Shown here: positions 5,856 through 8,974 of the stretch, piece after piece
Position numbering within the stretch: the first letter of the stretch is position 1
How the letters are laid out: each line of letters starts with the position of its first letter
Assembly (NCBI RefSeq): GCF_001894825.1
Contig: NZ_BCWY01000002.1
Coordinates: 62,001-126,000 of the forward strand
DNA from: Rhodococcus jostii NBRC 16295
Lineage (GTDB): Bacteria > Actinomycetota > Actinomycetes > Mycobacteriales > Mycobacteriaceae
Direction of reading: 5' to 3'
DNA: 64,000 nucleotides
Position numbers and translations under genes: made by a program
Notes under the pieces: generated by a model
The model's input: only the letters and a program-made list of their open reading frames with translations
What the model was told of the DNA's origin: nothing
The model's database searches: none

Positions 5856-5869
5856 AAGAACGTGTTCTA
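5856..5869. promoter_or_regulatory. KstR-like operator before the glycosyltransferase cassette
   Basis: The core AGAACGTGTTCT at 5857-5868 fits the KstR pattern TnnAACnnGTTnnA with one mismatch (A instead of the leading T). A TAGTAT -10-like hexamer follows at 5868-5873. It lies 38 bases before the GTG start of the glycosyltransferase. Confidence 0.6.
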
Positions 5870-5907
5870 GTATTGCTTGCCAGCTGCTCGAGGAGAGGCC
5901 GAAGTCC

Positions 5908-7155
5908 GTGCGCATCGCGCTCTTGTCGTATCGAAGCAAGCCCCACTGCGGTGGGCAGGGTGTGTACGTACGCCATCTCAGCCGTGAGCTGGTCGAACTC
6001 GGCCATCAGGTCGAAGTCTTCTCGGGGCAGCCGTACCCGGACGTCGACCCTCGGGTCACGCTGACGAAGGTCCCCAGCCTCGACCTGTACCGCGAGCCGG
6101 ATCCGTTCAGAACGCCGCATCCCCGCGAGTTCCGCGACGCCATCGACGTCCTCGAGGTGGCGACCATGTGGACGGCCGGTTTCCCCGAACCGCTCACCTT
6201 CAGCCTGCGCGCCGCGCGACTGCTGAAGGAACGCGCCGACGAGTTCGACGTCGTGCACGACAACCAGTGCCTCGGCTACGGGCTGCTGCAACTCCAGAAG
6301 GCCGGACTTCCCGTCGTCGCGACCATCCACCACCCGATCACCCGCGACCGCGAACTGGACCTCGCGTCGGCGAAGTGGTGGCGCAAGGTGACGGTCCGGC
6401 GCTGGTACGGCTTCCTGCGCATGCAGAAACGGGTGGCGCGTGCCATCCCCGCGCTGCTGACGGTGTCGCAGTCGTCCGCCGACGACATCAGCGCGGCGTT
6501 CGACGTTCCGGCCGGGAACCTGCAGACCGTCCCGCTGGGTGTGGACACCGAGGTGTTCCGGCCCCCGGCCGCCGCGCGGGTTCCGGGTCGCATCGTGTGC
6601 GTCGCCAGCGCCGACATGCCACTCAAGGGGGTGTCGACGCTCCTCGAGGCGGTCGCGAAGGTGCACACCGAGCGCGCCGTCGAACTGGTGCTGGTCACCA
6701 AACTGGCACCCGGCGGAGTGACGGAGAAGCTGATCGAGGAGCTGGCCATCGGCGACGTCGTCCGCACGGTGTCCGGCATCGACGACGGCGAACTGGCCGC
6801 GCTGCTGGCGTCGGCCGACGTCGCGTGCGTCCCGTCGCTGTACGAGGGCTTCTCGCTGCCCGCCGTCGAGGCGATGGCGTGTGGCACCCCGCTGGTGGCG
6901 AGCCGCGCCGGCGCCATTCCCGAGGTGGTGGGAACGGAGGAGGAGGCGTGCGTGCTGGTGACGCCCGGCGACCCGCAGGAACTCGCCGACGTCCTCGGCG
7001 CGCTGCTCGACGATCCGCAGCGCCGTGCCCGGCTCGGCGACGGTGGCCGGCGACGGGTGCTCGAACGCTACAGCTGGGCGGCGGTGGCGGCGAGAACGGC
7101 GCAGACGTATGCCGAAGCGATAGCGCAGACTCGTGAAGGAGGCCGACCGTGCTGA
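5908..7155 (+). CDS. GT4-type glycosyltransferase (GT-B fold)
   Basis: A 415-residue retaining glycosyltransferase of the GT4 (glycosyltransferases group 1) type. The N-terminal Rossmann half begins VRIALLSYRSKPHCGGQG; the C-terminal half holds VPLGVDTEVFRPP, PSLYEGFSLPAVEAMACGTP (the EX7E-type donor-binding region) and RYSWAAVA. The start GTG at 5908 has an AGGAGAGG site about ten bases upstream; the longer frame into the LLM gene is not supported. It overlaps the methyltransferase gene by seven bases. It may correspond to Rv0225 of M. tuberculosis, which also sits beside a methyltransferase, but that is from memory. Acceptor and sugar donor are unknown. A KstR-like operator lies just upstream, an unexpected place for a glycosyltransferase. 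Confidence 0.85.
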   Translation: MRIALLSYRSKPHCGGQGVYVRHLSRELVELGHQVEVFSGQPYPDVDPRVTLTKVPSLDLYREPDPFRTPHPREFRDAIDVLEVATMWTAGFPEPLTFSLRAARLLKERADEFDVVHDNQCLGYGLLQLQKAGLPVVATIHHPITRDRELDLASAKWWRKVTVRRWYGFLRMQKRVARAIPALLTVSQSSADDISAAFDVPAGNLQTVPLGVDTEVFRPPAAARVPGRIVCVASADMPLKGVSTLLEAVAKVHTERAVELVLVTKLAPGGVTEKLIEELAIGDVVRTVSGIDDGELAALLASADVACVPSLYEGFSLPAVEAMACGTPLVASRAGAIPEVVGTEEEACVLVTPGDPQELADVLGALLDDPQRRARLGDGGRRRVLERYSWAAVAARTAQTYAEAIAQTREGGRPC

Positions 7156-7889
7156 CCGTGGACTTCGACCGGCTGGGTGTGAAGCCCGGCGACAAGGTCA
7201 TCGACATCGGGGCGGGCGCCGGACGGCACTCGTTCGAGCTGTATCGACGCGGCGCCGACGTCATCGCCTTCGACCAGAACGCCGACGAACTCGCGGACGT
7301 CGAGAAGATGTTCGTGGCGATGGCCGAGGTCGGTGAGGTCCCCGCGGGCGCCTCGGCCCGCGTCGAGGTCGGCGACGCGCTGAACCTGCCGTACGAGGAC
7401 GCGACGTTCGACGTGGTCCTCATCTCCGAGGTCCTCGAGCACGTGCCCCGCGACGGCCGTGCCATCGCCGAGCTGACCCGCATCCTCAAGCCCGGTGGCG
7501 TTGCGGCGGTGACCGTTCCGCGGTGGCTGCCGGAGAAGATCTGCTGGGCGCTGTCCGACGCGTACCACGAGGTGGAGGGTGGCCACGTCCGCATCTACCG
7601 CGCCGACGCATTGGCGGAGAAGCTGACCGACGCGGGCCTCGAGGTCCGGGGCCGGGACCACGCTCACGCCCTGCACTCCCCGTACTGGTGGCTCAAGTGC
7701 GCGGTGGGGGTGGAGAACAACGACAACCCCCTCGCGAAGGCCTACCACCAGGTTCTGGTGTGGGACATGATGAAAGCCCCCTGGCTCACCCGCACCGCCG
7801 AGAAGGTGCTCAACCCCGTGGTCGGCAAGAGCGTCGTGTTCTACCTCGAGAAGCCGAGGGAACCGAGCGTGGTGAAGGCGCCGCGGTGA
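7149..7889 (+). CDS. Class I SAM-dependent methyltransferase
   Basis: A 246-residue Methyltransf_11-type enzyme. Motif I is VIDIGAGAGRHSFEL (residues 18-32), the acidic motif is VIAFDQN, and LPYEDATFDVVLISEVLEHV is the typical motif II/III region. The start is GTG at 7149, overlapping the end of the glycosyltransferase gene (stop 7153-7155); the 3' end overlaps the next gene through GTGA. The tight overlaps point to coupled translation and a shared pathway with the glycosyltransferase. The substrate is unknown; methylation of the transferred sugar or of the same acceptor is an inference from context. Confidence 0.83.
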   Translation: MLTVDFDRLGVKPGDKVIDIGAGAGRHSFELYRRGADVIAFDQNADELADVEKMFVAMAEVGEVPAGASARVEVGDALNLPYEDATFDVVLISEVLEHVPRDGRAIAELTRILKPGGVAAVTVPRWLPEKICWALSDAYHEVEGGHVRIYRADALAEKLTDAGLEVRGRDHAHALHSPYWWLKCAVGVENNDNPLAKAYHQVLVWDMMKAPWLTRTAEKVLNPVVGKSVVFYLEKPREPSVVKAPR

Positions 7890-8974
7890 GAGCCGCCGGC
7901 GTCCCGTCGGTACCGGACGTGTTGTCGGAGAGCCAGGTCAGGCAGACGGCACGGTCGATCGCGGCAGCGCAGGAGTCGTCGGGGGCGCTGCCGTGGTTTC
8001 CGGGTGGGCACACCGACCCGTGGGATCACGTCGAATCCGCCATGGCGCTCACCGCCGCCGGACTGATCGACGAGGCGGAAGGTGCGTACGCGTGGTCGCG
8101 GCGCACGCAGCGGCCGGACGGTTCGTGGCCGATGAAGTTCCGCGACGGCGCCGTGGAGAATCACGATTCCGACAGCAATTTCTGCGCCTACCTCGCGGTG
8201 GGGGTGTGGCATCACTACCTGGTCACCGGTGATCGGAATTTCGTCGACGCTCACTGGCCGTCCGTGCAGGGTGGTCTCGACTTCGTCGTCGACATGCAGG
8301 CGCCGAGCGGTGAAATCTGGTGGGCCCGAGGGGAGAACGGCCAGGACTGTCCCGAGGCGTTGCTGACCGGCAACTCCAGCATTCATCACAGCCTGCACTG
8401 CGGGCTCCTCCTGGCCCGGCTGGTCGACGACCCGCAGCCCGAATGGGAGTTCGCGAAATACACTCTCGGCCACGCGATCCGGCAGCATCCGGAGTCGTTC
8501 GCGATCAAGGACGAATACTCCATGGACTGGTACTACCCGATCCTCGGAGGTGCCGTGCGCGGTGAGGTCGCGTCGGACAGGATCACGTCGCGGTGGGACG
8601 ACTTCGTGGTGGAGGGGCTGGGCATCCGCTGCGTGGACCACCGGCCGTGGGTGACCGGCGCCGAAACGTGCGAGTTGGTGCTGGCACTCGACGCGATCGG
8701 GGAGCGTTCGCGCGCGCTCGCGCAATTTGCCGCGATGCAGCACCTGCGGGATCCGGACGGCTCGTACTGGACCGGGCTCGTCTACAGCGACGGCAAACGG
8801 TGGCCGGTCGAGCAGACCACGTGGACGGGCGGCGCGATGATCCTCGCCGCGGACGCGTTGTCCCGCACCACGCCCGGACACGGAATCTTCCGGGACGCGG
8901 CGCTGCCGGTGGGACTACCGATCGGGCTCGACCGCTGCGGCGACTACTGTCACGCCAGCGGTTCGCCCGTCTGA
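7886..8974 (+). CDS. Alpha/alpha-barrel protein annotated in relatives as prenyltransferase/cyclase-like
   Basis: A 362-residue protein starting at GTG 7886, which overlaps the methyltransferase stop. It shows repeated helical-hairpin sequence typical of the six-hairpin alpha/alpha toroid found in terpene cyclases, protein prenyltransferases and some glycosidases. QRPDGSW (near residue 71) is like the QW motif of squalene cyclase relatives, and [18 protein letters not shown] resembles glycoside hydrolase barrels. I see no DXDD protonation motif of squalene-hopene cyclase, so cyclase activity is not supported. It is the third gene of the glycosyltransferase-methyltransferase cassette. Function is open: a carbohydrate-active or isoprenoid-binding role would both fit. 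Confidence 0.7.

Follow-up and report, generated by a model that had tools for sequence, protein, structure and literature searches.

A survey across many bacteria points to control of the methylmannose polysaccharide genes by the sterol repressor KstR, even in some species seemingly without sterol breakdown

A stretch of 64,000 nucleotides from Rhodococcus jostii NBRC 16295 (contig NZ_BCWY01000002.1, positions 62,001 to 126,000; hereafter the window) carries, in the middle of a sterol cluster, three overlapping genes preceded by a site of the type recognized by the sterol repressor KstR, which raises the question of what these genes make and why they should stand behind a sterol operator. An earlier note on this DNA had proposed a steroid-induced and possibly undescribed system that glycosylates and methylates a lipid, an envelope component or a sterol metabolite. 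As judged by homology, the three genes (manT, pmeT3 and mmpH) form, together with a fourth (meT1), the four-gene cluster for methylmannose polysaccharide (MMP) known from mycobacteria, and a comparison of many bacteria suggests that KstR also controls MMP, even in some species that seemingly lack sterol breakdown.

Enzymes of the cassette and the site before it

The three genes read by the note at 5908-8974 are open reading frames overlapping by 7 and 4 bases (Table 1). The first product matched PDB 7qsg, which its depositors named 'D-inositol 3-phosphate glycosyltransferase' and which we infer, from this match and the published description, to be the structure of ManT, the enzyme characterized from M. 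hassiacum (PMC9883506; this and the other papers are cited for the accessible part of their text). Gly15, His142, Lys240, Asp293, Glu313 and Glu321 of ManT are conserved in the sequence alignment, read by eye. The product of mmpH matched PDB 7qsj, entitled 'Methylmannose polysaccharide hydrolase (MmpH)', with 233 of 341 aligned residues identical, and the active-site and subsite residues checked were the same in both sequences (11 of 11, including Asp47, Asp50 and Glu262). The note had seen a QW-like motif in this protein, which is predicted instead to be an (alpha/alpha)6 endomannosidase and no relative of cyclases; its assignment as a cyclase or prenyltransferase was rejected, the only such match being SQHop_cyclase_N, with E 0.026 and a score of 14.2 bits, below the cut-off of 26.2. 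The methyltransferase encoded between the two has a 3-O activity that is putative in the literature as well (PMC9883506). A homologue with 56-99% identity lies between manT and mmpH in 79 of 80 manT loci, the exception (L039) being a short scaffold; these loci are the best 80 of at least 546 confirmed relatives from a ManT scan and therefore, as best-scoring relatives, a non-random sample. The note's description of an alpha/alpha-barrel cassette holds for MmpH, but its range stopped short of the fourth gene, meT1, which runs on beyond it. The sole matches of the meT1 product at E ≤ 0.001 were PDB 6g7d, 6g80 and 6h40, which we take to be MeT1 structures, 6g7d being described as 'Methyltransferase domain protein'.

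The gene order is identical to that of M. hassiacum, in which tags 04402, 04403, 04404 and 04405 stand for ManT, pMeT3, MmpH and MeT1, and three of the window's enzymes match structures solved for the MMP cluster of nontuberculous mycobacteria (MHAS_04402-04405, MSMEG_6481-6484; PMC9883506). We assign the cassette to MMP because of the structure matches of ManT, MmpH and MeT1, the M. hassiacum gene order and the identical MmpH active-site residues. 'Glycosylates and methylates' was literally right, while the idea of an undescribed system gives way to characterized enzymes (ManT, MmpH and MeT1) and the substrates guessed by the note find no support in proteins that match MMP enzymes. Unlike the mycobacterial cluster, that of the window lies inside a sterol cluster and has a KstR-type operator, which is missing from all 12 mycobacterial loci examined. 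ManT orthologues (E ≤ 1e-120) were found in 198 of 393 Actinomycetes genomes, representing 49 of 123 genera, a distribution wider than the mycobacteria.

The sterol setting reported by the note was confirmed by matches to PDB sequences in the surroundings of the cassette, among them IpdA (best match 6co6, 'Probable CoA-transferase alpha subunit', which we take to be IpdAB; E 6.4e-192) and CYP125 (3ivy, E 1.5e-201), the latter with a perfect KstR-type site at 30876-30889, about 40 bases upstream of its assumed start. Both the one-mismatch site, AAGAACGTGTTCTA, and the TAGTAT element are present as the note had it, with 38 bases between the operator and the GTG of manT at 5908. A sigma-70 scan of 5700-9200 found no full promoter, so that only the -10-like element stands. 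The window holds 22 sites with at most one mismatch to TNNAACNNGTTNNA, against a mean of 5.6 in shuffles, and the perfect motif occurs 76 times genome-wide, against 27 times for the reversed pattern. With a matrix built from 31 published M. smegmatis KstR sites (Table 3 of PMC1995591), the manT operator scored 22.1, within the range of the training sites (18.4-31.2). The KstR of this genome (L089), which matches the PDB structure of KstR (5ua2) with E 1.8e-85, is encoded on another contig (C3), and the promoter of its gene contains the perfect site TAGAACGTGTTCTAATAT; the manT operator together with its -10 shares 16 of 18 bases with the kstR counterpart, in the same geometry, the kstR -10 being TAATAT. 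The same operator family and the same -10 overlap characterize the KstR regulon of mycobacteria (PMC1995591), and the window's genome has the KstR orthologue. MMP as a KstR target would be a new element, the M. smegmatis and M. tuberculosis site table in the accessible part of that paper listing no MSMEG_648x gene. Control by KstR2 was rejected: of the four KstR2-type matches in the window, only the pair at 3029-3046 is nearby, before ipdAB and echA20, and the window scan found none before manT or in 13101-13350. KstR control, as proposed by the note, remains the best reading of the predicted site, and the comparative evidence below goes further than a single sequence could.

The operator and kstR in other genomes

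A genus sample of 28 Rhodococcus genomes, of which 15 have manT (the window's own included), overlaps the 80-locus set, R. opacus and R. koreensis being seemingly in both. A site with at most one mismatch precedes manT in 11 of these 15 genomes, beginning 51-52 bases before the start. Over the 80 loci, such a site within 150 bp of manT (105 bp were available for L058) was found in 27, against 1.4 expected and a maximum of 6 in 200 first-order simulations, and it is distributed by group, as assigned from record titles: 6/6 in Rhodococcus, 11/16 in Pseudonocardiales, 9/12 in Nocardioidaceae and 0/5 in others. Matrix scores were bimodal, with 24 loci at 18.3 or above, seven at 7.4-16.4 and 49 at 0.7 or below, the 99.9% quantile of 1600 shuffles being 11.8.

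Of the 80 manT genomes, 70 have a KstR match at E ≤ 1e-35. In the three site-bearing lineages the site was present in 25 of 27 kstR-positive and one of eight kstR-negative genomes (p 4e-5), a comparison restricted to these lineages after the data were seen. The broader rule, a site wherever KstR is, was rejected over all 80 loci (26/70 kstR-positive against 1/10 kstR-negative, p 0.15); the one kstR-negative genome of the ten with a perfect site is L022, a metagenome-assembled genome (MAG) of 2.6 Mb. High-scoring sites also occur in the loci fetched from Prauserella (L025) and Actinophytocola (L012), neither of which contains a kstR homologue. The note had held that a cassette common in genomes lacking both a sterol cluster and the site would speak against its reading; this applies in part, manT being widespread, as counted above, and 53 of the 80 loci having no site. 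In the three site-bearing lineages the site goes with kstR.

A divergent kstR adjoins manT in 17 of the 80 loci, its products being 49-70% identical to rhodococcal KstR. These pairs comprise ten from Saccharopolyspora and Halopolyspora and seven from Nocardioidaceae, and the site lies in the gap, ending 33-75 bases before manT. In the class sample of 393 genomes, 15 genomes of one family (f25, taken to be Nocardioidaceae from the KstR identities) have KstR; for the 13 with both places among the matches listed, kstR and manT are divergent neighbours in 12, places being compared by eye, and none of the 13 coincides by coordinates with the seven Nocardioidaceae above. The adjacency is beyond chance, yet it comes from related genomes and stands for at least two lineages, not for 29 independent events. 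On a KstR tree, the manT-adjacent proteins form a Nocardioidaceae and a Pseudonocardiales group; a single KstR clade dedicated to MMP was not supported, the labels changing four times on the tree, with at least three changes forced. In several Saccharopolyspora (L008, L009, L011; L134-L136) the KstR homologue beside manT is joined by a second one elsewhere, and in the three Saccharopolyspora genomes for which both were placed the two fall in separate branches.

We then looked for sterol markers in these genomes, for Ltp2 and IpdA in a chosen set of 50 among the 80 and for KshA_C in 24 of the 80, including 12 of the 17 with an adjacent kstR. Ltp2 was found in 37/50 (weakly in G046), IpdA in 35/50 and KshA_C in 12/24 (weakly in G007). 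No Ltp2, IpdA or KshA was found in four of the 17 genomes with an adjacent kstR, yet they keep kstR and the site: Saccharopolyspora rectivirgula, Nocardioides ungokensis (a complete chromosome), a Marmoricola MAG and a Nocardioidaceae MAG. The single match of the S. rectivirgula genome to the 13-base motif RRAACRYGTTYYA is the kstR-manT gap (five matches for the reversed control). N. ungokensis has four matches, of which one is the kstR-manT gap and the other three fall within or close to genes with no evident part in sterol metabolism, translations being judged by eye. In the sterol-positive relative G076 the motif matched 24 times forward and 22 times reverse, and its control never. For kstR, the ratio of nonsynonymous to synonymous substitution rates (dN/dS) in S. 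rectivirgula pairs was 0.16-0.19, like that of a sterol-positive control pair (0.19), and in N. ungokensis pairs it was 0.36-0.40, the control pair there having 0.19; GC-rich codons probably compress dS. Purifying selection acts on kstR in both of these species, the two tested.

Proposed switch and competing explanations

We favour, with a probability of roughly three in four, the reading in which the cassette forms the core for making and recycling the 3-O-methylmannose polysaccharide, repressed by KstR at 5856-5869 and opened by sterol intake. MMP is a cytoplasmic polymer proposed, in the literature accessible here, to sequester and protect long-chain acyl-coenzyme A (acyl-CoA). MmpH would cut mature MMP into primers, ManT would lengthen these with alpha-1,4-mannose, pMeT3 would methylate O-3 and MeT1 would cap O-1 of the new reducing ends. 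KstR bound at its operator would cover the -10 and block transcription of manT-pmeT3-mmpH; sterol intake would raise the level of its ligand, according to the literature 3-oxo-cholest-4-en-26-oic acid or its CoA ester, and the operon would open, so that the capacity for MMP would rise as sterol breakdown delivers more acyl-CoA. R. jostii would accordingly be expected to produce MMP and to use it as an acyl-CoA carrier during growth on sterols. The remaining gene, meT1, is read from the other strand, probably together with genes for AhpD-like and dehydrogenase proteins. At the presumed head of that transcript (13101-13350) neither a KstR nor a KstR2 site was found, two mismatches being allowed, so the switch would affect elongation and recycling but not capping.

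This absence before meT1 is one of several findings that weigh against KstR control, as does the after-the-fact restriction to three lineages. The first T of the motif is absent throughout the genus sample, and sites with this mismatch behave inconsistently, MSMEG_2645 being positive by reverse-transcription quantitative PCR and Rv0223c negative in an electrophoretic mobility shift assay (PMC1995591). Four of the 15 manT genomes of the genus sample have no such site (decayed in L178 and L179, none in L180 and L181). Two of these four genomes (G478 and G486) have no intact site though sterol genes adjoin the cluster: G486, with a decayed site, keeps around its MMP genes a long run of the genes of the window's sterol region, at 64-95% identity, and G478 keeps ipdAB and neighbours (100 kb on one side examined). 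The site is therefore dispensable for a sterol-associated MMP cluster, and the proposal that small-genome Rhodococcus lost the operator along with their sterol genes was rejected on the same two genomes. Beyond the genus, the site precedes manT in 0/12 Mycobacterium sensu lato, 0/14 Nocardia and 1/15 Gordonia/Williamsia, the single match (L024) being chance-like with a matrix score of -6.2, despite KstR being present in 40 of these 41 genomes. The site in the divergent pairs could serve kstR alone, and the constraint on kstR in N. ungokensis, with about twice the dN/dS of the control, may be relaxed. The accessible text of PMC9883506 mentions MmpH homologues in Rhodococcus only, not Rhodococcus MMP.

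Published expression data come from two of the groups in which kstR adjoins manT here, as a predicted KstR regulon of N. simplex (PMC7593942, PMC7807495) and a steroid response of S. hirsuta (PMC9782250), and they count, if anything, on the same side. Of the 71 N. simplex operons for which KstR sites were predicted, 27 rose on phytosterol, which makes a predicted site a weak predictor of induction (PMC7593942/PMC7807495), and in S. hirsuta 28 genes were up after 24 h on cholesterol, cyp125 being the only one from the sterol pathway, with no mannosyltransferase named among the raised genes in section 2.4, as far as accessible (PMC9782250). The accessible main texts of PMC7593942, PMC7807495 and PMC9782250 contain no word starting with 'glycosyl', 'mannos' or 'polysaccharide', supplementary lists being outside that search.

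A perfect TGGACANNTGTCCA palindrome was observed, beginning 51-105 bp before manT, in nine of the 12 mycobacterial loci (L033, L035, L038, L040, L053, L058, L060, L063 and L072), where the KstR site is missing.

Several of these adverse findings are what would be expected if the genes were MMP genes behind a relic or poorly working site, an ancestral operator of an adjacent kstR lingering in Rhodococcus without control of MMP: the decay in G478 and G486, both with sterol genes nearby, the absence from sister genera and the constant loss of the first T. We consider this unlikely, since in the window's genome kstR lies on another contig (C3) and 11 of the 15 genus members nevertheless keep the site; since TGTTCTAG is retained in more distant Rhodococcus (L002, L013, L030, L067) while much of the surrounding sequence differs; and since the high-scoring sites of Prauserella and Actinophytocola have no kstR homologue beside them in the fetched locus. 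A KstR paralogue or another TetR protein might use the operator in place of KstR, the genome encoding two further proteins with a TetR_C_20 domain, one of them 49% identical to KstR. This is less probable still: the stretches examined upstream of both paralogues, with starts assumed, contain no match with up to two mismatches, the manT operator is nearly base-for-base that of kstR, and in S. soli, S. kobensis, Halopolyspora and Nocardioides G068, G076 and G077, all genomes with Ltp2 and IpdA, no match at E ≤ 1e-35 was found besides the gene adjacent to manT (for S. soli and S. kobensis, 77 of 171-188 first-look candidates were scored). The note's own version, an undescribed steroid-induced system acting on a sterol metabolite, lipid or envelope component, has its place inside the sterol cluster in its favour and is very improbable, as three of the four proteins match MMP enzyme structures near full length, catalytic residues are kept in the two checked, and the cluster also occurs in genomes in which none of the tested sterol markers was found.

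The preferred reading, repression of the MMP genes by KstR, admits a more speculative extension that we regard as doubtful: KstR may not be a sterol regulator at root, the kstR-manT pair being the older arrangement in which an acyl-CoA-type ligand sets the MMP level, with sterol catabolism recruited later. In the KstR tree as drawn, the divergent pairs fall in the deepest branches, the midpoint root being unsure because of long paralogue branches, and such pairs also occur in genomes with no sterol marker found. If this order of events were true, MMP would be among the means by which sterol-eating actinobacteria handle bulky CoA thioesters.

MMP has been known for decades and its gene cluster is likewise known; the predicted link to KstR is what appears to be new. 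A literature search leaving out most subscription papers found no paper joining 'KstR' and 'methylmannose', and MSMEG_6484 was found only in the MMP paper (PMC9883506). The searches returned no expression or binding data for the MMP genes of the window, and no RHA1 locus tags were found in the accessible text of PMC5380842. If true, the link would supply a physiological signal for MMP, for which the reported phenotype is slower growth at 15 °C (PMC9883506), would extend KstR beyond sterol breakdown and would account for the retention of a KstR homologue by genomes in which no sterol marker was found.

Other features of the window

Table 1 Coordinates of the MMP cassette, its predicted control elements and nearby features in the window
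Feature	Position	Strand	Evidence
ipdA and presumptive echA20, steroid ring C/D breakdown	1318..2993	-	ipdA: PDB 6co6
KstR2-type palindrome ACCAAGCAATTGCTTGGT	3029..3046	+	two overlapping one-mismatch matches to ANCAAGNNCTTGNT
LLM-class F420-type oxidoreductase (TIGR03619)	4916..5818	+	NCBIfam E 9.4e-78, above cut-off
KstR-type operator AAGAACGTGTTCTA	5856..5869	+	one mismatch (first T) to TNNAACNNGTTNNA
-10-like TAGTAT	5868..5873	+	sequence; overlaps last two operator bases
manT, alpha-(1->4)-mannosyltransferase	5908..7155	+	PDB 7qsg, E 2.3e-181, residues 1-407; GTG start
pmeT3, putative MMP 3-O-methyltransferase, class I S-adenosylmethionine-dependent	7149..7889	+	Pfam Methyltransf_11, 8.4e-20
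mmpH, MMP endomannosidase, (alpha/alpha)6	7886..8974	+	PDB 7qsj, E 2.6e-161
meT1, MMP 1-O-methyltransferase	8950..9612	- (convergent with mmpH)	PDB 6g7d/6g80/6h40, E 5.8e-92

The label echA20 is presumptive and comes from synteny, and ANCAAGNNCTTGNT, with four matches in the window against 0.36 expected, is presumably the KstR2 motif. The KstR2-type palindrome lies near a one-mismatch KstR-type site (3060-3073), between echA20/ipdAB and a divergent short-chain dehydrogenase/reductase (SDR) gene whose start the latter site overlaps. The LLM-class F420-type oxidoreductase gene adjoins the MMP genes elsewhere too, namely in some loci of other Rhodococcus, of Tomitella and of Nocardia. On the minus strand, genes for AhpD-like, 3-hydroxyisobutyrate-dehydrogenase-like, SDR and aldehyde dehydrogenase proteins (9609-13158) lead into meT1, and this set is likewise found near the MMP genes in Tomitella and several Nocardia. 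Towards the end of the window, mce4-like genes are bordered by a gene on the minus strand (62070-63650) that we take, from its sequence, to encode a trehalose-6-phosphate synthase, and the same neighbour is present in G486.

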